Positions 6,705-46,289 of a stretch of 50,238 nt of DNA are shown piece after piece. The DNA is from a virus. The stretch lies in the IMG/VR virus record IMGVR_UViG_3300015360_000063, positions 1-50,238 of that record, one strand, 5' to 3'. The notes under the pieces are model-generated. The model saw only the letters and a list, made by a program, of their open reading frames with translations, had not been told where the DNA came from and made no database searches. A program made the translations under genes and the position numbers. Numbering within the stretch: the first letter of the stretch is position 1; each line of letters opens with the position of its first letter.

Positions 6705-6807
6705 GTTATCTATCGCCCAAATGGCGAAAAGACTGGGGTGTCACTAGTTGACTCGTTCACAATCCCTCAAGTTGTGGGCCGTGTTCACGCGATATGGTTA
6801 TTATTTT

Positions 6808-6842
6808 AAATCCCTGGGTTAAACAAACTCGGGGATTTTTTA
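6808..6842 (+). terminator. Intrinsic terminator
   Basis: 9-bp stem AAATCCCTG (6808-6816) with CGGGGATTT (6830-6838), one G-T pair, 13-base loop, followed by T-rich sequence. The 100 bases before it (6705-6807) hold no gene that I can see. Confidence 0.85.
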
Positions 6843-6885
6843 TATAAAACAATATAATATACGGCATTAAAAGACTTAAAAGAAT

Positions 6886-8379
6886 ATGATAGTAAACTAC
6901 GAATACCTGAATGGCAAATTGATTGTGTCGTACATAAACACCAAGGGCAACCTGGAGTTTAAGAACTACAGCTGGCAGAACCCGACCGAATGGTGCGTAT
7001 GTTCTGACAAAGACCCGAACAAATCGGAGACAATGCACACATGGGACAACAAGCCGGTTAAAATCGGGCCGACGAGGTTCCCAACCAGATACGCGATCTA
7101 TGAATTTCTGATGAAACTGTCAGAATCTGAAAGGCTTGACATATTCTCGTACCAAGAACCAAAACTATTTTTTTGCGATATAGAGGTAGAGATTACCGAA
7201 GGCTTTCCGGAAGCGCACATTGCAAACAACAGGGTGACCGCGATGTGTTTCATAATCAAGAACAAGATATTACTGCTCGGGATAAAACAGATTGATGACT
7301 CTTGGGTAAAAAAAATGGAACAAGACATCAACGAATACTTTAAAGACTTCAATACCAAATATACTATCGAATGGTATTACTGTGATACCGAGCACGAGAT
7401 GCTGTCTTATTTCTTCAACGACCTTCTGAAGAAGATACCTGTACTAACGGGCTGGAATTTCATAGGATATGACTGGGTTTATTTGGTCACACGTGCGCGG
7501 AAGCTCGGCATAAACCCGAACGTTGCGTCGCCCACTGGCAAACTCATAAAACCATGGAAGAAACACCAGAATATGCAGAAACCGTCATTCGAAGAATTGC
7601 CCAAACACCGGTTGATTCTCGATTACATGGACATATTCGATAAATGGGACACGTCCATAAAGATCAAAGAATCGAAATCGCTAGATTTCGTCGCCGGCAA
7701 AATCTTGGGCATCAAAAAACTGGAATACCCGGGCACGCTGAAAGAGCTCTACGAAAAGGATTATTATAAATATCTATTGTACAACTGTGTCGACACCGCG
7801 CTCGTGCAACTGATCCACAATAAACAGAGGACTTTCGACATCATGCTGGCTATATCTAACCTCGCCAAAATTCCCATCGAAGACAGTCCTTCCGCCATAC
7901 GCGTGACGGAAGGCATATTTTTTACACAGTATTATCAGAAGGGAATTGTCATGGTGAAACAGAAACACGCCGCGGTGCTCGAAGCCGTCGAGGGCGATGT
8001 TGAGACAGAGGCCGAGTTGACCGGGGGCTATGTCAAGTACCCTGCGGTAGGGCTCAGACGATGGATCACAGTATTCGATTTCGCGTCACTGTACCCCACG
8101 ACAATGCGACAGTTCAACATCGCGCCGGAATCATTCCGCGGGATGAAAATAAACGACCACGAGGCACTGTTTAACGGCGTCAAGTATCAATTGCAGCCAA
8201 ACGACATCGTGCTCTTAAACGGAGCCGTATTCAAGAACGAGGACTCAGAGACCAAGCAAATCCTCACGTCAATCTTCGCAGACCGTAAAAAGCACAAGAA
8301 CACCGGACTGGACTTCATGAAACAGGAACAGCTGTTAAAGAACTATTATACAGAGAGATTCAATAAAACATACAAATAA
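6886..8379 (+). CDS. DNA polymerase, family B, N-terminal half (split gene)
   Basis: 497 residues matching the first part of a T4 gp43-type replicative polymerase. 3'-5' exonuclease motifs are visible: Exo I FCDIEVE (about 97-103), Exo II NFIGYD (about 191-196) and Exo III YNCVD (about 299-303). These are followed by TGGYVKYP (about 378) and palm motif A DFASLYP (about 398-404). The chain stops about 95 residues after motif A, before motif B (Kx3NSxYG) and motif C (YGDTDS). No continuation exists in any frame downstream, where a terminator follows. The other half must be encoded outside this window, as in known split family B polymerases of some T4-like phages. The two chains would have to assemble to give active enzyme. 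Confidence 0.9.
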   Translation: MIVNYEYLNGKLIVSYINTKGNLEFKNYSWQNPTEWCVCSDKDPNKSETMHTWDNKPVKIGPTRFPTRYAIYEFLMKLSESERLDIFSYQEPKLFFCDIEVEITEGFPEAHIANNRVTAMCFIIKNKILLLGIKQIDDSWVKKMEQDINEYFKDFNTKYTIEWYYCDTEHEMLSYFFNDLLKKIPVLTGWNFIGYDWVYLVTRARKLGINPNVASPTGKLIKPWKKHQNMQKPSFEELPKHRLILDYMDIFDKWDTSIKIKESKSLDFVAGKILGIKKLEYPGTLKELYEKDYYKYLLYNCVDTALVQLIHNKQRTFDIMLAISNLAKIPIEDSPSAIRVTEGIFFTQYYQKGIVMVKQKHAAVLEAVEGDVETEAELTGGYVKYPAVGLRRWITVFDFASLYPTTMRQFNIAPESFRGMKINDHEALFNGVKYQLQPNDIVLLNGAVFKNEDSETKQILTSIFADRKKHKNTGLDFMKQEQLLKNYYTERFNKTYK

Positions 8380-8415
8380 AGAACATCGCGTCAACACTTT
8401 TGCGACACACCAAAT

Positions 8416-8444
8416 AAAAAACCTGGTCTGAGACCAGGTTTTTT
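8416..8444. terminator. Bidirectional terminator, copy 1
   Basis: A-run, stem CCTGGTCT / AGACCAGG and T-run form a symmetric terminator between the converging polymerase and HNH genes. It works for either strand and is part of a 79-bp direct repeat. Confidence 0.9.
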
Positions 8445-8494
8445 ATTTGAAAGTTATGATTAGTATAAAATACCAGATTCATCTTCGATTTTGA
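8416..8494. repeat. 79-bp direct repeat, copy 1 (capsid 3' end duplicate)
   Basis: Identical over 79 bases to 9112-9190. It contains a terminator, the spacer, and the last ~10 codons plus stop of a minus-strand gene. Here those codons end the HNH endonuclease gene. Confidence 0.97.
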
Positions 8495-9053
8495 CAGCGT
8501 CATATTTATCACCCTTCGCGAGATTGTCTTCCCAATACAATGGCTGGAAATTAGTGTAGTGATTCAATAGTATTATATCGTCCTCAGTATGTGCCAACGA
8601 TATTGGTTTTATGTGGTCTAATTGCCAGTATGTGCCTTGATTATTCCACGTCATATGCTCATCAAACTTAGACTCTAAATGTTTTTTGAATTCATCAAAT
8701 GTACACCCCAAAATTTCAGTAGTTTTTTTTGACTTTATTGTAAATTTACGTTTGAACGCATTGCGTATAAGACAACGAATATTATCCTTCATCTTGAAGT
8801 GTGGGTCTGTGTTTAATTTAGCTTTGCGATATGCTATAACCTTGTTGACTATTGTCTCTTTATTATTAATATAATATGTTTTTTTATTATGCAAGTATGT
8901 CTGTTTATTTATATCATAGTCAGTTTTACGTAATTTCACTTTACATTCTTTACAATATGATTTTACACCGTATTTACCATTTTTACTATTGTGAAACATA
9001 TCAAGTATTTTTGGTATGTTACATTTCTTACATGTTTTAGTTATTGTTTCCAT
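8460..9053 (-). CDS. HNH endonuclease with zinc-finger N-terminus, probable homing type
   Basis: 197 residues. N-terminal CKKCNIPK and CKECK pairs look like a zinc ribbon. The C-terminal part carries the HNH core: WQLDHIKPIS, then NHYTNFQPLYWEDN and LAKGDK. This matches free-standing phage HNH nucleases that cut DNA and spread by homing. The final residues KIEDESGILY are identical to the end of the capsid protein downstream, because the 3' end of that gene is duplicated. The gene is inserted between the capsid gene and its original terminator, without harm to either. It is more A/T-rich than the neighbouring capsid gene, in keeping with a mobile origin. Confidence 0.9.
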   Translation of the reverse strand: METITKTCKKCNIPKILDMFHNSKNGKYGVKSYCKECKVKLRKTDYDINKQTYLHNKKTYYINNKETIVNKVIAYRKAKLNTDPHFKMKDNIRCLIRNAFKRKFTIKSKKTTEILGCTFDEFKKHLESKFDEHMTWNNQGTYWQLDHIKPISLAHTEDDIILLNHYTNFQPLYWEDNLAKGDKYDAVKIEDESGILY

Positions 9054-9111
9054 GTTATTATATATTAAATTAATCGTCCCTGAAAAAATATAAATAATAT
9101 TATAAGCAAAA

Positions 9112-9140
9112 AAAAAACCTGGTCTGAGACCAGGTTTTTT
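9112..9140. terminator. Bidirectional terminator, copy 2
   Basis: Same hairpin as at 8416, now directly after the capsid stop codon on the minus strand. This ends capsid transcripts before the HNH gene. Confidence 0.9.
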
Positions 9141-9190
9141 ATTTGAAAGTTATGATTAGTATAAAATACCAGATTCATCTTCGATTTTGA
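9112..9190. repeat. 79-bp direct repeat, copy 2 (capsid 3' end)
   Basis: Identical to 8416-8494. Here the coding part is the genuine end of the major capsid gene. Confidence 0.97.
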
Positions 9191-10895
9191 TAGCCATGTA
9201 TTGCTTCTCCGGAAAAAATCCAAATTCACAAATTGCAAAACGAGAGTACATGTACAGACGTGGTGCCATTGTTTTTTCTGAAGTGATTTCAACTGATTCA
9301 GCTAACATGTAAGCTAAGAATTTCAATCCTGGCTCTTCTTTCTTACCGATACGACCTAAGTAGATAGTTAAATCTGCTGGTCCCATGTATGGGTCAACGT
9401 AAAGTTTAATACCGTCGATTGTACCTGCTGGTTGTAATTGGTTTGGTCCTGCTAACTTGGCGTCTAATGGATTGATTGTATAACGCTCAACACCTTTCAG
9501 GATGCCTGCAACAGTACCAGAAGTTACAACGTAGTCAATGCCAGCGATACGGCCGTCATTTGCAACATAGTAAGATGCTTGTTGAACTTTTGACCACAAT
9601 TTACGTGAAATTGAAGCATTGTGTTCTCCACCTAAAGCTGCTGCTGTAGCTGTAACTGACATATCAAATATTTTACCATCTGTAATACCACCACCTGCTA
9701 AACCTGCTAACATTGCTGCTGGAGCTGCTGGAGCTGTAGCACGATTTTTTAATCCCATTTCCTTTACTTTGTCTACGATTTCTGTAGAGATTTTCTGAGA
9801 GATTTGGTTAACTAACTGTGCCTTAGTTTTTTCAACTACGTCAACACCGTACATACGTTTCCAGTCGCCGATTTCAGATAATCTTAAAGCTGCAGATACG
9901 TGAGCCACACCGATTTCAACTGATTTAGTGAAAGAGTTTGGCCCGATTTTACCGGCTTCGTCGATTTCCCATGCGCCACGAGTCATTGTCTTGTTGCGTC
10001 CTGTTGTGAAATCGTCGATGAAATCTTCGTTTAGAGAAACTAGAGCAACATTTGCTACTGCAGTTATTACATAAGACGCTGCTGAAAAGTTAGTATCGTC
10101 GATTGTACCAGCTGTTAATAATGCGCTGATAGCACCAGCAGTTGGGAATGTGTTTAATGCTTGGTTAAACTGCCATGCGCCAGCTGACGCTGAGTTTTGT
10201 TGGATATATGCACGGAACATTGGTAGACCGTCGATGCGTGAAAATCCTTTGAATTCAAACCATCCTAGTTTAGAACCGGCTGGAGCTACTCTAGAATCAT
10301 ATGATGCTTGTACAGCACCAAAAGCACCACCGCTAACGTGAAAATACAATTTGTTAGAAATACGACCGCGTAATTCAGTTGTACCAGTAAACACCATTTC
10401 TGCACGTAAGAACGCAACTAGAGTTGTGAAATTTGCGTCTGCAGTTGGGCGAAATTTGAAAGTTGAAGTTCTTTCATCTTCTACACCGTTAGCGTTAGCA
10501 ACGTCATCATAAGACCAATCAAAGTACAATAAATCTACGCGATTTGAGTTAACATTGATTGTCGGCAATAATTCCAAACCTGGGGTTTGTGCTGCAATCT
10601 TTAAAGACGCCGGTAATAAAGTTTGACCTAAATCTCCAGAACCTGATGTTCCCGGTAAACCTGGAATTGCAGATAAACCTGGGAATTGTACATTACCCAT
10701 ACCTGCGGTATTTGCCATGTTTGCATATGCAACATTTTCTTTTACCATACCAGCAGTAATTGCTGATGCATGCATTTCAGCATACTCACATAATTCGTTG
10801 ATACGTTCAACGTTAGTGATACCTAATTTTTCAACGATTGGTTTCCATTTTTTAAATGCTTTGTCCATATCGATTGCTAATTGAGAATTTCTCAT
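9156..10895 (-). CDS. Major capsid protein, T4 gp23-like
   Basis: 579 residues, close to the length of T4-type capsid proteins (~520). It has a helical N-terminal arm of about 70 residues likely to be removed on maturation (LCE around residue 36 is a plausible cleavage site, inferred). A glycine/proline-rich linker follows, then the beta-rich core with the helix SVEIGVAHVSAALRLSEIGD and WKRMYGVD, which resembles the conserved gp23 spine helix. It assembles the icosahedral shell. The gene lies downstream of the protease-scaffold and portal genes on the same strand, the reverse-map equivalent of the T4 order 20-21-22-23. A late-type promoter box lies 36 bases upstream. Confidence 0.85.
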   Translation of the reverse strand: MRNSQLAIDMDKAFKKWKPIVEKLGITNVERINELCEYAEMHASAITAGMVKENVAYANMANTAGMGNVQFPGLSAIPGLPGTSGSGDLGQTLLPASLKIAAQTPGLELLPTINVNSNRVDLLYFDWSYDDVANANGVEDERTSTFKFRPTADANFTTLVAFLRAEMVFTGTTELRGRISNKLYFHVSGGAFGAVQASYDSRVAPAGSKLGWFEFKGFSRIDGLPMFRAYIQQNSASAGAWQFNQALNTFPTAGAISALLTAGTIDDTNFSAASYVITAVANVALVSLNEDFIDDFTTGRNKTMTRGAWEIDEAGKIGPNSFTKSVEIGVAHVSAALRLSEIGDWKRMYGVDVVEKTKAQLVNQISQKISTEIVDKVKEMGLKNRATAPAAPAAMLAGLAGGGITDGKIFDMSVTATAAALGGEHNASISRKLWSKVQQASYYVANDGRIAGIDYVVTSGTVAGILKGVERYTINPLDAKLAGPNQLQPAGTIDGIKLYVDPYMGPADLTIYLGRIGKKEEPGLKFLAYMLAESVEITSEKTMAPRLYMYSRFAICEFGFFPEKQYMAIKIEDESGILY

Positions 10896-11141
10896 ATTTT
10901 TAATTTTCTGTATTTTTATTTTTTATTTTAATTATATATTAACGTTTTTCTCATTTTTTCTAATCTTTAAGATGCTATCGTTTTCTGTATCTTAATACTA
11001 AAATGAAAAAAATAATATGTGCTAAACATTCTTGTTTGTCATGTTTAATGTAATATTATATATGTTTCTTTTTTTGCGTGTTTTTGCCAAAACACACAAT
11101 TTGTTACATTTTATATAAAAAGTTTAAAATAATCAAAAATA
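10896..11141. other. Non-coding gap with capsid promoter
   Basis: About 245 A/T-rich bases between the capsid start and the protease-scaffold terminator. The minus-strand late-type box ATTATATATTAA (plus-strand reading) is at 10931-10942. A second ATATATAAT-like run lies near 11050. I see no gene here. Confidence 0.6.
10931..10942 (-). promoter_or_regulatory. Late-type promoter motif before capsid gene
   Basis: Reads TTAATATATAAT on the minus strand, identical to the box at 1660, ending about 36 bases before the capsid ATG. Confidence 0.55.
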
Positions 11142-11169
11142 AAAAGACCGTCACGAATGACGGTCTTTT
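11142..11169. terminator. Terminator after protease-scaffold gene
   Basis: Perfect 12-bp stem AAAAGACCGTCA (11142-11153) with its complement (11158-11169), loop CGAA. T-runs on both strands. It closes the minus-strand protease-scaffold gene. Confidence 0.9.
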
Positions 11170-11185
11170 ATTATGTTGTGTATGA

Positions 11186-13561
11186 TTACTTTGTATTAAA
11201 GTTCTCCATAGTCTTCATGAAAGAATTGATATACTTATCAGATAACACGTCATTGTCGACAGTGTTTGCTGATTCCTTAATCAAAATCGCTTCAGCACCC
11301 AATACAGATTTAGCAAACGGACGAGTACTCCAGAAATTTGCAATATCTGCGTTCGTGACTAAATTGAAATATTTAGATTCTGATATGATTGATAACTTTT
11401 GTTCTTGTGCCATGTTATTCCATGATTCAGTCAATGTCTTAGGTACGTTAGAGATTAATCTCTCGTCGTATGTCATTGTCTTCTCATTGATTACACGACC
11501 GATAACGTTCAATACATCTTGTGTGTTGTAGTATTCGCTATTGTATAATTCAAGAGTGATTGCAGCACGGTATGCACTTTCTAATAATTTGAAATCTTCG
11601 ATTTGTTGTTCAGATAAGAAATTGTAGAAATGTGGTCTCTGGTTTGCAAGTACCTTTTGTTTCTTAAGCTCAGATAATACGTGGCTAACTTTCTCAGCAA
11701 CATTTTCTTCTGGGTTTAAGACTTCGTATTGGTCGTGTCCTAATTCACTTGTATCTTCAGAACCCGATTTTTGAATAGTGATTTTATCGTCTGTAACTTC
11801 GATAACTACACCAGTCTCGTCAGTCCCCACAATCTTAACCAATGCAGACATAAGAGTGTCTTTCATGTTGTTAGGCCCGCCTTCTGGCTGAACATCAGTA
11901 ACATCATTGATATTAAGTGCCGCCGGTACATCTTGTGGTTGTACGTCAGATGTAGGCTCAGAACTTGTTACTACAGGTTCTTCTGTCGTCATAATTGTTG
12001 GTTCAACTTCAGTAACCCCAGCAGATTGCTCTTCTGTTGGTGTTTCAGTAAACTCTTCTTGGTTCTCGATGTTATTGATTACCTCTTGTTCTTCTTCAAT
12101 TCCTAAGAATTCAACAATAGTCTCTAGTGAATGTATTGCATTTGGTGCAGTATTCTCGTTTACTGGAAGTGATGACTTAACGCTTTCTACAACTTTAACA
12201 TTGTATGCAACAACACCGTCAACTTTCTCTGCGATATAATCTAAGAAAATTTGGTCTCTGTAACATTCGTTGGCTACGTATTCTAACATGCCTTGTGTGT
12301 CTTTAACCTCACCTGCGATACTCTCGGCAAATTTCTGTGCTATTTCTGTTTCCGCGGCAACGTTCTCAGCAAACTGCTGTGCTATTTCTGTTTCCGCGGC
12401 AACGTTCTCAGCAAACTGCTGTGCTATTTCTGTTTCCGCGGCAACGTTCTCAGCAAACTGCTGTGTTATTTCTGTTTCTGCAGCAACATATTCTAAGAAC
12501 TCTGCATTATTTGCCACGTTCTCAGCAATCTTAGTTACATTGTTTGCGATGTCTTCAGAGAACAAGATGTTTGCTTTAGCGTGTTCCGCAACATACTCAA
12601 TCATCTTCTCGTCAACTGATAATCTAGTTTCGATGTCGACCGTGTATTTGTTTAAGTTTTTTAATTGAGACGCGATATGATTAGAATACGCAGTATTCTC
12701 GTTAATCTCGTATTTCAACTTGCTATTGTCAGAAACCAACTTAGAGTTTTCTGATACCAAGTGAGATACCTTAGTTTTCAAGAATGATAAATATTCTTTT
12801 ACTGCTCCCATCTCTTCGTTTAAGATTTCATGTTTCTCCATTAATCCTTTAACTTCTGGAGCATACTTTCCATTACCTAATTTCGATAATATTTGGTGTT
12901 CTAATTTAGCCATTTCATTTGCTAAAATTCCTTCCATGTGTTTTAAATCCATTGCTGTTTTTCTGTCATTTTTATTGTCTAAAAATAAATTATTTACCTG
13001 GTCGTCCTTCATCTCATAGATGCGGTAAGGTACGTCAATAGTAGTTTTCAATCCAAAACTTTCATTAACACTAACACGTGCTGACGGAAAACCTGGGTCT
13101 ACAACAATGTCGTAAGTGAACAATTCTTTTAGTGCTACGTTTCCAGAACCGTCTGTAACGCCTGCGGCTCTTGAAGACACGAATAACGGGTAACCGTCAT
13201 TAATAATTGCACGGGCTTCTTTACCATAATGTGTGCTCAATAATGCAATAGAACCATCGACACGTTTAGAATTTTCGTTATGTATTAGAGATTCAATCGC
13301 GTGTGACACATTTTTACCTGCAATGTCAAAAACATCCGGATGATCAAATTCACCATATAATACACCTAACATTTTGCGTTTTTCTAATAATGCTGTCATG
13401 CATGGTATAAAATTTTTGGCGTTATAAAAACGTTTATTACGATTTTCTATATCGAATTCTGTAAATATACCACTTAGTAAGAATTTTGACGTAGAACTAG
13501 CTGATTCATTTTTTTTCAATGATTCTGTGCCATTCTCGACAATTAATACGTGTTTTTCCAT
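11186..13561 (-). CDS. Prohead protease fused to scaffold/core protein
   Basis: 791 residues. Residues ~25-190 match the T4 gp21 prohead protease (herpesvirus assemblin-like serine protease): GEFDHP (70-75) with His74, a second conserved His at NVSHAI (87), and the serine motif FVSSRAAG (127-134). The remaining ~600 residues are acidic and mostly coiled coil, with 14-residue repeats (QQFAENVAAETEIA type) at about residues 365-420, as expected for an internal scaffold. In T4 the protease (gp21) and scaffold (gp22) are separate, so this is a natural fusion that would deliver one protease per scaffold chain and be degraded on maturation. A near-perfect TATAAATA late box lies just upstream. Confidence 0.85.
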   Translation of the reverse strand: MEKHVLIVENGTESLKKNESASSTSKFLLSGIFTEFDIENRNKRFYNAKNFIPCMTALLEKRKMLGVLYGEFDHPDVFDIAGKNVSHAIESLIHNENSKRVDGSIALLSTHYGKEARAIINDGYPLFVSSRAAGVTDGSGNVALKELFTYDIVVDPGFPSARVSVNESFGLKTTIDVPYRIYEMKDDQVNNLFLDNKNDRKTAMDLKHMEGILANEMAKLEHQILSKLGNGKYAPEVKGLMEKHEILNEEMGAVKEYLSFLKTKVSHLVSENSKLVSDNSKLKYEINENTAYSNHIASQLKNLNKYTVDIETRLSVDEKMIEYVAEHAKANILFSEDIANNVTKIAENVANNAEFLEYVAAETEITQQFAENVAAETEIAQQFAENVAAETEIAQQFAENVAAETEIAQKFAESIAGEVKDTQGMLEYVANECYRDQIFLDYIAEKVDGVVAYNVKVVESVKSSLPVNENTAPNAIHSLETIVEFLGIEEEQEVINNIENQEEFTETPTEEQSAGVTEVEPTIMTTEEPVVTSSEPTSDVQPQDVPAALNINDVTDVQPEGGPNNMKDTLMSALVKIVGTDETGVVIEVTDDKITIQKSGSEDTSELGHDQYEVLNPEENVAEKVSHVLSELKKQKVLANQRPHFYNFLSEQQIEDFKLLESAYRAAITLELYNSEYYNTQDVLNVIGRVINEKTMTYDERLISNVPKTLTESWNNMAQEQKLSIISESKYFNLVTNADIANFWSTRPFAKSVLGAEAILIKESANTVDNDVLSDKYINSFMKTMENFNTK
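12339..12464. repeat. 42-bp tandem repeats in scaffold region
   Basis: Three essentially identical 42-bp units (12339, 12381, 12423) with degenerate units on both sides, encoding 14-residue coiled-coil repeats. The length is in frame and a multiple of two heptads. Confidence 0.95.
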
Positions 13562-13630: not shown

Positions 13631-15355
13631 TTAAGCTACATCATCTCCGCCTGTGTCAGTCGGTGGCGTTTCTTCAGCCGCGGCTGTTTCAGCTCCAGTG
13701 TCAGTCGGTAGAGTTTCTTCAGCCGCGGCTGTTTCAGCTCCAGTGTCAGTCGGTAGAGTTTCTTCAGTCGCTGCTGTTTCAGCATCACCAGCTCCAGCAC
13801 CACCAGCGCCAGCATCGTTCTTCCAGAATTGCTCGTTCTCGGCCATCTGTTCGTCAGTAAACTCCATAATGTGTTTGGCAAGGAATCTCCAATGCAACAT
13901 TGGTTTATCATCTTCACGTTTCAGGTTACTCTGTAAATCATTTGCTATAGACGCTTTGGCCTGCATGTTTGATAACATCTTGGCTTTTATTAATTCCGAG
14001 TGTCCGTAGAAAATTATATTCAAGTCATTGTACAACTTATTGTCAGATTCTAGTTCCGGAAAATCTAAAAGCAGCTGTAAGATTAATGGTTTCAAGAGAA
14101 CGTCTTTGAACAAAGTTCTCAATCGCTCGATATATTGTTGGAAGTTGTAGTCGTCGTGTGTCAATTCGCCGCCCAGGCTGTAGATGTTACCGCCACCAGT
14201 GCTATTGTCAAGTCTGGTAAACGGGAACTTAGAAGCACGCTTCAATGCGTTGTGAAACCATATTAACATGGTGTTCTCGTTCAGGTCATGACCTCCAGGC
14301 TCGATGATACTCATTTCCGGTTTCGCATCGCCCGGATTAGGCAACCAGTATTCCTTAGAATATGGCAAGTCCTTGCTTCCGTCAATGTAAATCAAACCGG
14401 TCGTATCGTCAAACGCTATATGGTCTTTGTAATCCGCGATAAGCGTCGCAATCTCTTGTTCTGCTTGCATCGGTGACAACCCCTGTGTCGGGATGATGAA
14501 CTGCTTGTGCATTGTTGCGTTGATTAAGTTGAAAAGCAACTTGGCGCGTTCGATGCTTTTTAGTTCGTTATAAGGCCTGATTAAAGGTTCTACATAACTG
14601 GTTTCCATATAATTCGAAGAACCCGAGTAAGACACATAGATAATCTCTGCATCCAATAGTATCCTTCTGTTCTGTTCGTCGTACGGATACTGTATCCACA
14701 ATTTCAGACCAGACTCAGGGTCGATTATTGGTATGACAGTAAGCGGGTCAATCTTCTGGAATCCAGCGATATTCTTACCCTTCTTATCGTATATAATCTC
14801 ACGGCACAGGAATCCCTCTACTATCCAGTCTCTGCAAATATCCCAGGCGAGTGAGCCGTCTGCAAAACCGCTTATGGTGTATATGTTCTCGAATATGTCT
14901 TTTATCTTTTTTCTCACTGCAATAGGATAAGACTCCGGTAAGTCGACGATCTCACAGAATTTCTTGTCCTTTCCGTATACAATCATCTCGTTTGCCATCT
15001 TGGTAACGAAATATCTAATCTCCACCTTAGACGCGTATTCTCTCAGAATAGGAATCTTGGTTATATAGTCTCCAGACAATGCGGCAATCGTTTGTCTCTC
15101 TTGCATTATAGCGTGGACCTTGCGACTGAACACTGTGTAATTGTATCCGCTGCTGTCAGTTATGGCTGAAGTGTCTTCGTTCGCGTGAATACCTTTCGCG
15201 TTTTTAATAGCAGCTTCTTGGTAATTACGACCGAACAACGATAGTCGAGCTACACGGCTATTGAAAAACGTCTGATTGTTCGTAGATAGACTATCTAGTA
15301 TAGTAGAGCCGGTCGAACCACTCTGTTGTCTATATGGATTATACCCTGATGCCAT
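13631..15355 (-). CDS. Portal protein, T4 gp20-like
   Basis: 574 residues, similar in length to T4 gp20 (524). The central segment with PLIRPYNELKSIERAKLLF and the following region is the conserved portal core that packs the helical wing and stem. The dodecameric portal sits at one capsid vertex, and is the docking site for the terminase and neck. The last ~60 residues carry three 15-residue repeats (ETAAAEETLPTDTGA type) encoded by a 45-bp tandem repeat, an acidic disordered tail not typical of portals. The gene precedes the protease-scaffold gene in the same direction, as in T4. Confidence 0.85.
   Translation of the reverse strand: MASGYNPYRQQSGSTGSTILDSLSTNNQTFFNSRVARLSLFGRNYQEAAIKNAKGIHANEDTSAITDSSGYNYTVFSRKVHAIMQERQTIAALSGDYITKIPILREYASKVEIRYFVTKMANEMIVYGKDKKFCEIVDLPESYPIAVRKKIKDIFENIYTISGFADGSLAWDICRDWIVEGFLCREIIYDKKGKNIAGFQKIDPLTVIPIIDPESGLKLWIQYPYDEQNRRILLDAEIIYVSYSGSSNYMETSYVEPLIRPYNELKSIERAKLLFNLINATMHKQFIIPTQGLSPMQAEQEIATLIADYKDHIAFDDTTGLIYIDGSKDLPYSKEYWLPNPGDAKPEMSIIEPGGHDLNENTMLIWFHNALKRASKFPFTRLDNSTGGGNIYSLGGELTHDDYNFQQYIERLRTLFKDVLLKPLILQLLLDFPELESDNKLYNDLNIIFYGHSELIKAKMLSNMQAKASIANDLQSNLKREDDKPMLHWRFLAKHIMEFTDEQMAENEQFWKNDAGAGGAGAGDAETAATEETLPTDTGAETAAAEETLPTDTGAETAAAEETPPTDTGGDDVA
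13653..13783. repeat. 45-bp tandem repeats at portal 3' end
   Basis: Three units starting at 13653, 13698 and 13743, nearly identical, in frame, encoding the acidic 15-residue C-terminal repeats of the portal protein. Confidence 0.95.
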
Positions 15356-36048: not shown

Positions 36049-36057
36049 ATATATAAT
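36045..36057 (+). promoter_or_regulatory. Late-type promoter motif
   Basis: TTTTATATATAAT overlapping the most upstream ATG (36056) of the terminase paralogue, which argues that translation really begins at 36086. Confidence 0.5.
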
Positions 36058-36085
36058 GTATACAAATAAATCAAAATATCGACAT

Positions 36086-36985
36086 ATGAGAATTTTTAAA
36101 ACAGAAGACATAAACAGGATAATTGAAAAAATTAATCTGGGACATAAAATGTCTAGGAAAAATAATATTTTTTTCAGACACCAAGAAGGCACGTTAGATG
36201 ACGACATTTCTGTGTTATTATCGCAAGACGAGCTTATAGAATATGGCAAGTGTGCCAATGATATTTGTTATTTTATTGAGTCATGCTGTGGTGTGAAATT
36301 GAGACAGTATCAGAAAGAATGGATAGACAATTTCATGAACAACAGGTTCATGATATATTGCACATCGAGACAGACCGGGTATTCCGCCGTCATGGCCGCG
36401 GTGTATTTGCACTACATGATATTCAATAAAAATAAAACCATATTAGTCGTATCGAATAAATGCGCGTCTGCCGTAGAATTTATGCACAAACTGTTTAAAC
36501 ATTATCAGAGAATACCATATTGGATTAAACCTGGCATTGTCACAAAAAATAATAAAAATCTTAAATTTAATAACGGTAACCAAATACGCATGCGGTCCGG
36601 AATAAAAAGTAAACCCACCGAGTTTAGTATTGATTTGTTATCATATATGGAGTTTTCGCATATCCCACAGTCAACACCAGATATGCAATATAACAACACG
36701 TTAGTGCCTGAACTATGTGCAAACACAGAATCTAAGATATGTATACAATCACAACCGGCCGGTTTTGACAGCTTTTATCAATTGATTAACGACTCAGAAC
36801 GTAAACCTAACGACCCAATGAAGAATATCTACAAGACTGTAAAGACATATTGGTGGGAAGTAGACGGGAGAGATGACACATGGAGACAACGTGAGATAAA
36901 CATTATCGGCGCCGACGCATTTGCGCGGGAATATGACCTACAGTTTGTATCGAAAGCCGTTGTACAGACGACAATAAAAATATAA
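36086..36985 (+). CDS. Degenerate terminase ATPase paralogue (P-loop-dead)
   Basis: 299 residues from the ATG at 36086 (309 from 36056, which overlaps the promoter box). It aligns along its whole length with the ATPase domain of the adjacent terminase, including FxKCAxDIxYF, R-(Q/D)-Y-Q, the long helix after the P-loop, KPG(I/L)-x-(N)-x-(N)-x-K and a shared block after it. The catalytic motifs are altered: Walker A SRQTGYS instead of SRQTGKT (Lys and Thr lost), Walker B LLSYMEFSHIP instead of FLYMDEFAHIP (Asp lost), and coupling motif SQPAG instead of STPNG. There is no nuclease domain. The intact frame suggests a retained, non-hydrolysing role, for example as a terminase partner. This is inference. 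Confidence 0.8.
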   Translation: MRIFKTEDINRIIEKINLGHKMSRKNNIFFRHQEGTLDDDISVLLSQDELIEYGKCANDICYFIESCCGVKLRQYQKEWIDNFMNNRFMIYCTSRQTGYSAVMAAVYLHYMIFNKNKTILVVSNKCASAVEFMHKLFKHYQRIPYWIKPGIVTKNNKNLKFNNGNQIRMRSGIKSKPTEFSIDLLSYMEFSHIPQSTPDMQYNNTLVPELCANTESKICIQSQPAGFDSFYQLINDSERKPNDPMKNIYKTVKTYWWEVDGRDDTWRQREINIIGADAFAREYDLQFVSKAVVQTTIKI

Positions 36986-36994
36986 CTAACTGAA

Positions 36995-37513
36995 ATGGGA
37001 AGACATAAGAAAGAGAAAGACCCGATAGAGAAACAGTTTGTATTCACAACAGACGCTGTAAATGACATACGGGAAAAACAGTCGCAAGGCTTTGACATAC
37101 CTAGGTACATGAACCCGTGGTTCAAAAAAGAAATGGGCGTGAGAAGAACCGGTTGTGTATTCGGGTGGACCCAAGAAGAAATAGACGAGTTCACGAAATG
37201 TGCATTAGACATACACTATTTCGCGAACACATACTGTCACATAAAATCCGAAGACGGCCAGATCAGGCAGATGAAATTACGGGATTACCAATATAAAGTG
37301 CTTGACGCGTACACTAAAAACAGATTCACGTTGAACATGTCGTCAAGGCAAACAGGCAAGTGTATAGGTCCTATAACCAACGTGTCGTGTATGATAAATA
37401 ATGCGGTCGTAGAACTACCCATGTTCAAATTGCTGTTTGAGTACAGAGAAAACAAAACATTTTACGACTATATAAAATACCCGATATATTGGGTGTTATG
37501 GAAATTAAACTAA
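36995..37513 (+). CDS. Terminase large subunit N-terminal extein plus N-intein fragment
   Basis: 172 residues. Residues 1-122 are the start of a T4 gp17-like terminase, ending in MSSRQTGK, the first part of the Walker A P-loop. Residue 123 (Cys, codon at 37361) begins an intein: CIGPITNVS matches intein block A with the nucleophilic Cys1. The intein sequence runs 50 residues, then stops before block B. The rest of the intein and terminase is encoded by the gene at 37699. Protein trans-splicing would join Lys122 to Thr of the second chain and restore SRQTGKT. The split between blocks A and B is that of the atypical split inteins with a short N-fragment, such as AceL-TerL. Confidence 0.85.
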   Translation: MGRHKKEKDPIEKQFVFTTDAVNDIREKQSQGFDIPRYMNPWFKKEMGVRRTGCVFGWTQEEIDEFTKCALDIHYFANTYCHIKSEDGQIRQMKLRDYQYKVLDAYTKNRFTLNMSSRQTGKCIGPITNVSCMINNAVVELPMFKLLFEYRENKTFYDYIKYPIYWVLWKLN

Positions 37514-37698: not shown

Positions 37699-39933
37699 AT
37701 GAAAAAAATCATAAATAGAATTCTATTTGACATAATTGAAAAGATAGAGTCATATCAGTACAGAAATACCACTTTAGACCAAGACTGTGTATTAAAAAAA
37801 ACAAAAAACATTACATTCACTGACAAAAAAGATTTGTACGTGGATTCGCCGGAAGGCTGGGTTAAGGTGACTGAAATAAACGAGACACAACCATATAAAA
37901 TATGGTTTATGAAAACAGAAAATGGCAAAGAACTGTTTTGCGCCGATAACCATATCGTGTTCGATAGCTTGGGTCAAGAAATATTAGTTAAAGAATTAAG
38001 TGTAGGCCAACACATAATCACTCGTGACGGATTCGAAAAGATTACTGTTATGTATGTGTACAATACTTCCAATAGTATGATAGATTTGACCGTAGGCGGC
38101 AAAGAAATGAGGTATTACACAAATGATATTTTGAGTCATAACACGATATGCGCGGCAATAACACTACTACATTATTCTATTTTTAATACAAATAAAGGTA
38201 TAATGGTTGTAGCGAATAAGGGCGAGACGGTTATAGAGATTTTGGACAAGATTAAAAATATATACAAGTTACTGCCATTCTTTCTTAAGCCGGGGCTTAT
38301 AAACTGGAACACCAAATCCATAGTTTTTGACAACGGCTGTCGTATAAAATCACAGGCACGTTCAAAAGAACCGGCGATCGGTTTTACGATAGACTTTCTC
38401 TATATGGACGAGTTTGCTCACATTCCGAGGAGTATAATAAACCACTATTACAAGGCCGTTATACCCACAGTGTCGTCCATCAAGAATTCTAAGGTGGTCA
38501 TAACGTCGACACCAAACGGCGCCAATCTGTTCAAAGATTTGGTCATGGGCGCGTCGTTGCCTAATGGGCATGCAGACAAGAATATGTACAGCCTGATAAA
38601 GGTGCTGTGGTATCAAGTACCAGACGGCAAATTTGAAGACGGTACGACCGGGACAAGATTCGACGCACGGCTTTACCCATTGGCATTTGAAATGGCGACA
38701 CACAAGTTCAGTGTCGAGAAGCTCGTGAAACACCTACAAGGTCTCAATTTCAAGGTAGCTATAGAACAGGAGACTACTGATACTGGCAATAAAGATTTCG
38801 TACGTATATTATACAAGGACGGCGTCACAGATGTCGAATCGATCAAGAAGATGGATTTAGACGGACTGAATGTTGCGAAGATTTGTACTATAACGAACTG
38901 GAAAGAGCAGGAGACTAAACTGATCGGTGGCGAAGAGGCATTCAACCAGGAATACGGATGCCAGTTCATTGCCGGGTCTAAGCGGGTGTTGAGCGCGCCA
39001 AAGGCGAAGGAGCTCGAAGCGCGTACCGAAGTTTATAAGACCAGAGAGATTGAGATTCTGACAAAGAGACTGCGATTCACGTATAACGAGCTGCGTTGGG
39101 CACCTGATTATATAGAGCACGAGAGAAACAACTACTACTGGGTTTCCATGATGGATGTGTCAGAGGGTTTGGGACTGGATGACTCGGTAATCAATCTGTT
39201 CAGGCTGATGGTGAGGCCCAAATCTTGGTTGTTGGAAAACAAGATCAAGACGATGTACGACGCGTTCTACCTAAAACAGACGGGCATATACAATTTTAAC
39301 CGATTAGACCACAAGAAGGAACTGCCTGAGTTATTTTACATGTTACATTTCGAGTACTTAAATCCCGAACGCGTTAAATCCGTTGTAGAATACAACGGGC
39401 CGGGTTCCACGTTCATAGTGGCGCTCAACCAGGTGTTTGACGGAAACAACGATTTCGGTAGTCACGTGCTAGTCAGGTATAAACATAGGACGGATGACAA
39501 CACAAAAAAAATGGGTCTTAAGGTCAGCCGTAACAAAAAAGAGCTGGTGAAATCGTACATAGACTGTATCGAGACGGACATGCTGTATGTAGACGAGAAT
39601 ATCACGCTGGACCAGATGGATAATTTCATAAAGGTTGACACCAGGAGCGGTGACGTGACGTATCGTGCTGACGCAGGACACGACGATATAGTTATGACGT
39701 TAGTCGGCGGCGCCACATATTTTGATACCCAGGATTATAAAAATATGTGTTTTAACTATTATAACGAGCTTTCTGGAGAGTACCAGGGGTTAATTGACAA
39801 GGCATTAGACCTGGAACACAATCCTAATGCTATATCGTATAAGAGCATGAGCGCGGCTCTGGCCAAAAGTAAGAAATCAATAAGCCGTACAAACAGATTT
39901 TCTGGTGGACGAGGCCGTTTTATGGGGAAATAA
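37699..39933 (+). CDS. C-intein fragment plus terminase large subunit C-terminal extein
   Basis: 744 residues. Residues 1-148 are the C-intein: block B-like GKELFCADNHIVFD, block F-like MIDLTVGGKEMRYYTND and block G ILSHN with the terminal His-Asn, followed by Thr149 (codon 38143) as the +1 residue. The remaining 596 residues are the terminase: Walker B FLYMDEFAHIP (about 233), coupling motif STPNG, and the RNase H-like nuclease with MMDVSEG (about 485), VVEYNGPG and GHDDIVMT (about 661). Relative to the paralogue upstream, an extra ~80 residues are inserted before the ATPase end. With the N-piece the spliced terminase would be 718 residues. It packages DNA into the prohead at the portal. Confidence 0.88.
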   Translation: MKKIINRILFDIIEKIESYQYRNTTLDQDCVLKKTKNITFTDKKDLYVDSPEGWVKVTEINETQPYKIWFMKTENGKELFCADNHIVFDSLGQEILVKELSVGQHIITRDGFEKITVMYVYNTSNSMIDLTVGGKEMRYYTNDILSHNTICAAITLLHYSIFNTNKGIMVVANKGETVIEILDKIKNIYKLLPFFLKPGLINWNTKSIVFDNGCRIKSQARSKEPAIGFTIDFLYMDEFAHIPRSIINHYYKAVIPTVSSIKNSKVVITSTPNGANLFKDLVMGASLPNGHADKNMYSLIKVLWYQVPDGKFEDGTTGTRFDARLYPLAFEMATHKFSVEKLVKHLQGLNFKVAIEQETTDTGNKDFVRILYKDGVTDVESIKKMDLDGLNVAKICTITNWKEQETKLIGGEEAFNQEYGCQFIAGSKRVLSAPKAKELEARTEVYKTREIEILTKRLRFTYNELRWAPDYIEHERNNYYWVSMMDVSEGLGLDDSVINLFRLMVRPKSWLLENKIKTMYDAFYLKQTGIYNFNRLDHKKELPELFYMLHFEYLNPERVKSVVEYNGPGSTFIVALNQVFDGNNDFGSHVLVRYKHRTDDNTKKMGLKVSRNKKELVKSYIDCIETDMLYVDENITLDQMDNFIKVDTRSGDVTYRADAGHDDIVMTLVGGATYFDTQDYKNMCFNYYNELSGEYQGLIDKALDLEHNPNAISYKSMSAALAKSKKSISRTNRFSGGRGRFMGK

Positions 39934-45100: not shown

Positions 45101-45143
45101 ACCATTTATATGACCGATGTACACTTATGTTTAGTCTTGGTTG

Positions 45144-45229
45144 GGGTAGAGACGAGACTCGAACTCGCATGACTTTTTACGGTCTCCGGGTCACAACCGG
45201 GCTGGATTCCATTACCAGATACACTACCC
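45144..45229 (-). tRNA. tRNA-His (GTG), long variable arm
   Basis: About 86 nt. Anticodon loop TTGTGAC on a CCGG stem, T-arm GCGAG-TTCGAGT-CTCGT, acceptor GGGTAGTG/CTCTACCC with one T-T mismatch, and an encoded G-1 paired with C73, a tRNA-His hallmark. Unusual 16-nt variable region (GAC..GTC stem possible), unlike normal tRNA-His. Confidence 0.65.
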
Positions 45230-45246
45230 GTGTATGGGTCATTTTT

Positions 45247-45322
45247 GGGTGTAGAGTGGGACTCGAACCCACGGCATCTCGTACCACAAACGAGCGCTCT
45301 GCCAAACTGAGCTATAAACACC
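45247..45322 (-). tRNA. tRNA-His (GTG)
   Basis: Anticodon arm CTCGT-TTGTGGT-ACGAG, D-arm GCTC..GAGC, T-arm GTGGG-TTCGAGT-CCCAC, normal 5-nt variable loop, G-1 opposite C73. Acceptor has two mismatches. Confidence 0.85.
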
Positions 45323-45345
45323 ATATTACTCATTCTAAGAACTTT

Positions 45346-45428
45346 TGTTACTGTAACAGGACTCGAACCTACGTTGCAGAATTAACTCGACAGATTAACA
45401 ATCTGGACCGTTTGGGCACTACGGCAAC
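45346..45428 (-). tRNA. tRNA-Asn (GTT), long variable arm
   Basis: About 83 nt. Anticodon loop TTGTTAA with CAGA/TCTG stem, T-arm GTAGG-TTCGAGT-CCTGT, and a ~17-nt variable region with a GTT/AAC stem. The acceptor GTTGCCG/CAGTAAC appears extended by two pairs. The D-arm is hard to fold, so ends are approximate. Confidence 0.55.
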
Positions 45429-45440
45429 ACTGAAATGTTG

Positions 45441-45512
45441 CGGATATGGATGGGTTCGAACCAACGACCTACCGGTTAACAGCCGGTTGCTCTACCACTG
45501 AGCTACATATCC
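45441..45512 (-). tRNA. tRNA-Asn (GTT)
   Basis: Canonical cloverleaf: acceptor GGATATG/CATATCC with discriminator G, D-arm GCTC..GAGC, anticodon arm ACCGG-CTGTTAA-CCGGT, and a normal short variable loop. Confidence 0.92.
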
Positions 45513-45592
45513 TTATGATTTAATTCTATATTATCGCTATTATCACTATTATCGCTGTCTTCCATGACGTTTTCGTTTTTATTTATTTTTTG

Positions 45593-45663
45593 TGACCCCG
45601 GATGGAATCGGACCATCATCTTGCGGTTAAAAGCCGCAAGCTCTACCATTGAGCTACGAAGTC
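45593..45663 (-). tRNA. tRNA-Lys (TTT)
   Basis: Anticodon arm TGCGG-CTTTTAA-CCGCA, T-arm GATGG-TCCGATT-CCATC, acceptor GACTTCG/CGGGGTC (two G-T pairs), discriminator A. Confidence 0.92.
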
Positions 45664-45680
45664 ATTACATTATTTCTTCG

Positions 45681-45752
45681 TGCACCCAGAAGGACTCGAA
45701 CCTTCAGCCTTCCGGTTAAGAGCCGGAAGCTCTACCATTGAGCTATAAGTGC
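45681..45752 (-). tRNA. tRNA-Lys (CTT)
   Basis: Anticodon arm TCCGG-CTCTTAA-CCGGA, T-arm GAAGG-TTCGAGT-CCTTC, acceptor GCACTTA/TGGGTGC, discriminator A. Closely similar to the Lys(TTT) gene beside it, so probably a duplication. Confidence 0.92.
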
Positions 45753-45836
45753 ATAATCTTATTAGAGACCTGACCCACAGTTTATGGTTCAAGTCTTATC
45801 GTTTTCGTTTCACAGGTTTCATCTTTTTCATAATAT

Positions 45837-46202
45837 TTATGGTTTTAATCCGTTATTATATCTTTCAATTCGATAATTATTTCTTATTGTATTTTTATTT
45901 TTACCTTTATTTTTACCACAATATGTTGGTTGTAATGCATCACAGTTTTTACATACCAATTGGCAGTTATTCAATCTCCAATTGTCTGAATTTCCATCAA
46001 TATGGTCAAATGTCAAGGGTATTAATTGATTTAACCAGTGTGTATTTTTACATATTTTATATTTATGTCCTTGTATCTCAATTAAAAACTGTTTTGCTCT
46101 TCTTACTTGATACACTGCATTTGTTTTTAAATTTAAACAATCAAAAAATACTTCTTCTCGTAATACTTTTTCTTTATACTCTTCTTTTATTGGTATACTC
46201 AT
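45837..46202 (-). CDS. HNH endonuclease inserted in the tRNA cluster
   Basis: 121 residues. TFDHIDGNSDNWRLNN followed by CQLVCKNCDALQPTYCGKNKGK is the HNH core with the usual H-N pairs and a CxxC zinc-binding element. This type is common as free-standing homing nucleases in phages. It lies between tRNA-Lys(CTT) and tRNA-Trp, with different, more A/T-rich composition, as expected for a mobile gene. Confidence 0.85.
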   Translation of the reverse strand: MSIPIKEEYKEKVLREEVFFDCLNLKTNAVYQVRRAKQFLIEIQGHKYKICKNTHWLNQLIPLTFDHIDGNSDNWRLNNCQLVCKNCDALQPTYCGKNKGKNKNTIRNNYRIERYNNGLKP

Positions 46203-46218
46203 TCATTTTTATTTTTAG

Positions 46219-46289
46219 CACTTAGACTAGGATTCGAACCCAGAACGATGAGGTTGGAGCTCATCATGTTACCGTTACACTATCTAAGT
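46219..46289 (-). tRNA. tRNA-Trp (CCA)
   Basis: Perfect acceptor ACTTAGA/TCTAAGT with discriminator G, anticodon arm ATGAG-CTCCAAC-CTCAT, T-arm CTGGG-TTCGAAT-CCTAG (one mismatch). Confidence 0.9.

Follow-up and report, generated by a model that had tools for sequence, protein, structure and literature searches.

A free-standing HNH endonuclease gene behind a gp23-type phage capsid gene, flanked by two copies of the capsid gene's end and terminator

Our analysis of a 50,238-base stretch of viral DNA (the window) indicates that a homing-type, free-standing HNH endonuclease gene has probably entered just behind the major capsid gene in a huge phage of the gp23 type, duplicating about 80-88 bp of its target. 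The insertion relative to an empty site in the nearest relative (L004), the duplication itself, the in-frame junction and the intact reading frames are direct observations. As we picture it, an HNH gene entered immediately 3' of the capsid gene, and the copy of the target on the capsid side would preserve the coding end and terminator of that gene. The copy at the far end would supply the HNH frame with its last 12 codons, stop codon and terminator, and would also keep a terminator between the two convergent transcription units. The features of the locus are collected in the table.

Table. Features of the capsid/HNH locus (window coordinates)
Feature	Position	Strand	Evidence
Major capsid protein gene, gp23-like, 579 aa	9156..10895	-	Pfam Gp23 3.8e-13; PHROG 138 major head protein 4e-9; ~39% identical to huge-phage relatives over 99%
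Capsid-gene terminator, near-perfect 39-nt palindrome with longer T run	9107..9145	-	Fold -19.6 kcal/mol, z -6.8; terminator scan 9112-9140
Repeat copy A, at the original position, comprising capsid codons 568-579, the stop codon and the terminator	9107..9194	-	86/88 vs 8411-8498; capsid tail kept in relatives
Inserted unique segment, 608 bp, G+C 0.288: 53-bp leader and HNH codons 1-185	8499..9106	-	Missing from empty site in L004
Free-standing gene for a 197-aa HNH endonuclease with a zinc motif (CxxC..CxxC) at the N-terminus and HNH at the C-terminus	8460..9053	-	PHROG 1035 endonuclease VII 3e-20; weak Pfam HNH; conserved residues; model
Final 12 codons and stop of HNH frame, copied from capsid	8460..8498	-	HNH relatives' ends; low pLDDT
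Repeat copy B: copied capsid tail, stop, terminator	8411..8498	-	Match to copy A
Terminator-like hairpin, 39-nt palindrome, one unpaired center, between convergent HNH and polymerase genes	8411..8449	.	Folds on both strands, -25.1 / -24.5 kcal/mol
Convergent ORF for a family B DNA polymerase, 497 aa, covering the exonuclease and the beginning of the polymerase domain	6886..8379	+	Pfam DNA_pol_B_exo1, DNA_pol_B; same position in L004, 69% identical

The core of the repeat is a pair of directly oriented, identical 79-bp segments (8416-8494 and 9112-9190), and with mismatches allowed it extends to the full span of copies A and B, which are 98% alike. The longest exact repeat obtained in 500 trials with first-order Markov sequences of the stretch was 16 bp, and among the exact direct repeats of the window the 79-bp pair ranks second, behind a longer tandem array within a gene. 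The repeat is present in exactly two copies in the window, both at the capsid/HNH locus, and each copy consists of the last 12 codons and stop codon of the capsid gene together with the 39-nt palindromic terminator. The repeat encodes, in the same frame, both the C-terminus of the capsid protein (..MAIKIEDESGILY) and that of the HNH protein (..YDAVKIEDESGILY). The 79-bp identity that gives the two genes the same end had been pointed out in an earlier note on this DNA, and sequence comparison bears it out. That note also had both proteins ending in KIEDESGILY; the common tail is confirmed, and its actual length is 12 codons with one I/V difference, slightly above the 10 residues given.

The capsid gene adjoins the genes for a head maturation protease (11186-13561) and a portal protein (13631-15355), all on the minus strand, and its best matches among phage records, at about 39% identity, come from uncultured huge phages of 635-735 kb. 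In relatives with a readable 3' end nearly all capsid proteins finish with the pattern EKQYM.I.V.D or one close to it, and this retention indicates that the tail originally belongs to the capsid. The nearest relative, a 123-kb contig (L004) with a 76% identical capsid protein, has the same gene order as the window, namely portal, protease, capsid, terminator and convergent polymerase, with nothing HNH-like in between and no HNH match on the whole contig. Its capsid ends in the orthologous tail MAIKVEDASGILF, and tail and terminator occur in a single copy; thus, a direct repeat of the target flanks the insert in the window and the empty site has one orthologous copy. This contig supplies the comparison with HNH-less relatives that the earlier note had proposed as a means of defining the empty site, and it upholds the claim that the HNH gene came in at the 3' end of the capsid gene and that this end was duplicated in the process.

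The 3' end was readable in another 24 capsid loci, representing about 17 distinct sequences; in these the stop codon is followed by a terminator-like hairpin with a T run, and none of them has an HNH gene behind the capsid gene. Given the empty site in L004 and these additional loci lacking it, the HNH gene is best regarded as a newcomer, its presence being sporadic with an empty site in a relative. The orthologous capsid end of L004 is about 80% identical over 64 bp, as against 98% between the two copies in the window, which suggests that the duplication is either recent in this lineage or has been kept alike by recombination; we favor an insertion that would be recent. No relative was found with an HNH gene at this site in the absence of the repeat, an observation of little power since none has an HNH gene there. 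Over 73 aa, an ORF of L004 at 8809-9915 (minus strand) matches residues 278-350 of the portal protein encoded on the same contig at 71% identity, and by eye the N-terminus of the ORF resembles the capsid start; these could be gene fragments copied into a neighboring ORF.

The occupied arrangement is represented by one metagenome contig and the close empty-site relatives by one contig in the collections searched, and a degenerate capsid-tail pattern run against the viral contigs matched L004 alone, drawing in no more occupied loci. With a single metagenome contig an assembly error is conceivable, in which misjoined reads would have made the repeat copies or the junction, and an exact repeat of 79 bp is within the range able to confuse short-k assembly. 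However, the in-frame junction, the two differences at the repeat edges and the flanks collinear with L004 on both sides fit a real locus, and a misjoin is not expected to yield an open frame that ends at the usual C-terminus of the family plus 12 codons. We therefore consider an artefact quite improbable.

Several observations bear on the identity of the protein encoded by the newcomer. Beyond its best family match, which is to PHROG 1035, the match to the Pfam HNH profile is weak (E 0.064, below the cut-off), and the HNH catalytic motif is intact, with DH146-147, N168, N177 and K180 invariant across 35-36 diverse relatives. An AlphaFold model, the alignment for which left out the locus L027 (see below), has a mean pLDDT of 88. 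For residues 91-193, HNH domains are among the nearest solved folds, with Z <5; a Foldseek search of the model against the PDB gave no match at E 0.001, and a sequence search against solved structures gave nothing meaningful. Among predicted viral proteins the model recovered 54 matches, several of them named HNH endonucleases and one an intron encoded endonuclease. The label of PHROG 1035, endonuclease VII, represents a point of likeness to F-CphI and the Endo VII-motif (DHHRN) homing endonucleases (PMC6083498). However, the central DHDH motif of that family (PMC6083498) is missing, the corresponding sequence being WQLDHIKPIS, of the HNH type, and both CxxC pairs are N-terminal instead of flanking the motif; membership of that family was rejected on these grounds.

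A scan of 6800-11300 against Rfam, with matches up to E 1 considered, recovered no intron family around the HNH gene. A group I intron was rejected, there being no Rfam ribozyme core and just 53 bp ahead of the ORF, and so was an intron or intein housing the gene, as there is no Rfam intron and the HNH gene is a separate ORF with a stop between two terminators. The gene can thus be described as free-standing, in that its ORF lies outside any detected intron or intein. The inserted segment also differs in composition, being A+T-rich, with a G+C of 0.288 against 0.403 for the capsid gene and 0.447 for the polymerase ORF.

The HNH frame is composite in origin: codons 1-185 (8499-9053) are its own and codons 186-197 are capsid-derived. 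Its relatives end near KxNK, soon after a conserved DN..K..K stretch, and 25 residues follow the QPL motif here as against a median of 14 in the relatives, in which no tail of the KIEDESGILY type was found. The tail of the HNH protein, as judged from these sequences, is derived from the capsid gene. Residues 183-191 and 194-197 of the model have pLDDT <50, which, in a region where the alignment has no depth, serves as supporting evidence that the 12-residue tail may be a disordered add-on. It could be imagined that the capsid C-terminal peptide has a function on the HNH protein, whereby it would attach to capsid or scaffold and so bring the nuclease to the head or into it, with a role in packaging or injection, for example, as the 12 residues have been kept in frame and are identical at the protein level save for the single I/V change. 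We find this very hard to credit: the copies are too alike for conservation to signal selection, the tail is disordered in the model, no relative carries such a tail, and the HNH frame had to end somewhere. The tail would more simply be a neutral by-product of the insertion.

The hairpin at the far end (8411-8449, -25.1 kcal/mol) has a z of -8.3, compared to -6.8 for the capsid-side copy (9107-9145). The terminator scan flagged the latter and left the former unflagged, probably because the A/T arms lengthen its stem and no separate T run follows. The far-end hairpin, which folds on the plus strand as well, may also serve the convergent polymerase gene. The outer boundary of the repeat coincides exactly with the outer edge of this palindrome, and the capsid-side palindrome has a single base difference from it that disrupts one of the outer pairs and makes the T run longer. 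The sole two mismatches between the copies sit at the edges facing the insert, and beyond these the short matches TTTG and GCT remain at the junctions. On one reading, the true duplication would be 79 bp and TTTG and GCT would be brief homologies at the junctions, of the sort seen in template switching or end joining; edge mismatches of this kind accompanied by such matches are what would be expected of microhomology joining. The duplication might accordingly have originated in break repair or in replication template switching with little homology. Both terminators and the capsid and HNH frames are intact in the sequence, and the earlier view that capsid, terminator and new gene all stay functional is to that extent supported at the structural level.

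When the repeat is collapsed in silico the capsid protein is unchanged, with the same 579 aa, and any stretch of the collapsed site, up to a length of 80 bp, can still be found in the occupied locus. Homing enzymes normally spare their own genome, as the insertion breaks their site. Given this persistence, the insertion here destroys no cleavage site of ordinary size, and an enzyme cutting there would also cut its own genome; hence the enzyme is unlikely to have its target precisely here unless the site is protected in some other way, and the earlier suggestion that the HNH enzyme cuts the uninterrupted capsid 3' end is disfavored. This bears on classical intronless homing, in which the enzyme would recognize and cut that end and the gene would be copied in by homologous repair. 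A homing-type HNH gene does adjoin a conserved essential gene, and homing genes of the free-standing class are often neighbors of the gene that they target (PMC2988022, PMC10448857). Yet no site of normal length is protected by the insertion, and the process needs a donor already carrying the HNH gene between capsid ends, so that it can account for the spread of the gene but not for how the duplication arose. We regard it as unlikely, while the site-preservation argument may leave room for an enzyme that cuts elsewhere. Under the preferred explanation, insertion with duplication of the target, recombination between the 79-bp identical arms could restore the empty site, and such precise excision would be plausible on structural grounds.

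To place the repeat in context we surveyed 129 non-redundant HNH relatives, drawn from both viral contigs and phage records, for flanking direct repeats, with 99.9% of a cross-locus null as the threshold. Five of the 129 loci exceeded it, the window included, and the score of the window was 153 bits against 46 for the next best. No repeat comparable to that of the window was seen among these relatives. Since relatives elsewhere lack a comparable repeat, the duplication does not appear to be the regular mode of entry of this HNH group. As duplicated gene tails the other four were rejected: those of L095 (47 bp) and L027 (15 bp) are intergenic, promoter-like motifs with further weaker copies, that of L058 (31 bp) lies in two paralogous ORFs, and that of L048 (14 bp) is short and intergenic; in none of the four is a protein tail shared.

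L027 (LR745206) is the most suggestive of these other loci. Its 15-bp repeat, TCTGTAAAGAATCCA, flanks an HNH gene ahead of the protease gene, and the HNH stop falls within it; L026, a relative with an empty site, carries this sequence once, with one mismatch. The motif also occurs elsewhere in the L027 genome at up to 2 mismatches, in 9 places versus 3 for a reversed control, and a weaker version lies upstream of the protease gene in L015; these additional copies suggest that the repeat may be a promoter. It is thus doubtful that the HNH group inserts by a defined target-duplicating process, with the copy completing the nuclease's own frame and L027 as a possible second case; a general duplication mechanism for the group is not established. 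A motif near TCTGTAAARAATCCACC, which precedes protease and capsid genes by about 80 bp in these huge phages (L027 2031, 2710 and 4916; L026 2739; L015 2733), is a candidate late promoter element. The related HNH genes L027 2015-2716 and L112 3001-3633, 60% identical to each other, are found in two huge phages at the same position, ahead of the head protease gene, and L026 and L029 show no match to HNH genes of this type before the protease gene.

Homing-type nuclease genes are often found near phage capsid, terminase and other essential genes (PMC10448857), and segD of T4 lies between genes 23 and 24 (PMC2988022). The window resembles the free-standing seg/mob homing genes of T4-like phages in having a small intron-less nuclease gene beside a conserved essential head gene (PMC2988022, PMC10448857). 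However, segD is of the GIY-YIG type and in opposite orientation, whereas the gene described here is of the HNH type and in the same orientation, with the target's tail and terminator duplicated. Restriction-modification genes of Helicobacter pylori are known to have inserted with long duplications of their target (Nobusato et al. 2000, via PMC1643837, PMC3031569); as far as these accounts describe them, such insertions share with the window a nuclease-type gene, a long direct target duplication and an empty site in a relative. They would differ in that the window has a phage HNH gene and 80-88 bp, with a duplication that completes the newcomer's frame and supplies its terminator. In the ShiLan insertion element an HNH gene lies inside a phage methylase gene and its start resembles the target residues beside the site (PMC11855218), about 11 of which recur at the insert edge, roughly 66-76% alike (PMC11855218). 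The ShiLan HNH frame lies within the gene, out of frame with it, and has its own stop inside the insert (PMC11855218); in contrast, the insert in the window lies behind the gene, its repeat is 98% identical and the HNH stop comes from the repeat. Our search of non-subscription literature found no description of a homing-type gene whose end and terminator were copied from its neighbor. The insertion would thus belong to a known kind of selfish-gene insertion, with the copying of the newcomer's end and terminator from the neighbor as its new aspect.

Other features of the window were noted in passing. The head protease gene contains a 42-bp tandem repeat (12280-12529), with a similar repetitive stretch (..YSEYLAENLDKNI..) in the protease genes of relatives. 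The terminase large subunit is spread over two plus-strand ORFs, the first of which (36995-37513) ends ..SSRQTGK/CIGPITNVSC.. and the second of which (37699-39933) reads ..DNHIVF.. and ..ILSHN/TICAAITLL.. before terminase sequence resumes; by eye, the pair resembles an intein, split or interrupted, that sits at the ATP-binding motif. Another partial copy of the terminase lies at 36056-36985, and six tRNA genes (His x2, Asn, Lys x2, Trp) are clustered on the minus strand at 45143-46289.

The locus can be viewed as a freeze-frame of a homing-type nuclease gene settling without harm behind an essential, highly expressed gene: with the coding end and terminator of the target copied, both genes would keep an end, and the nuclease gene now carries the tail of its host gene as an in-frame fusion. 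The site-preservation argument sets an origin of this kind, through duplication, apart from classical homing at this position, and the arrangement predicts that the nuclease gene may be lost precisely through recombination between the 79-bp arms.
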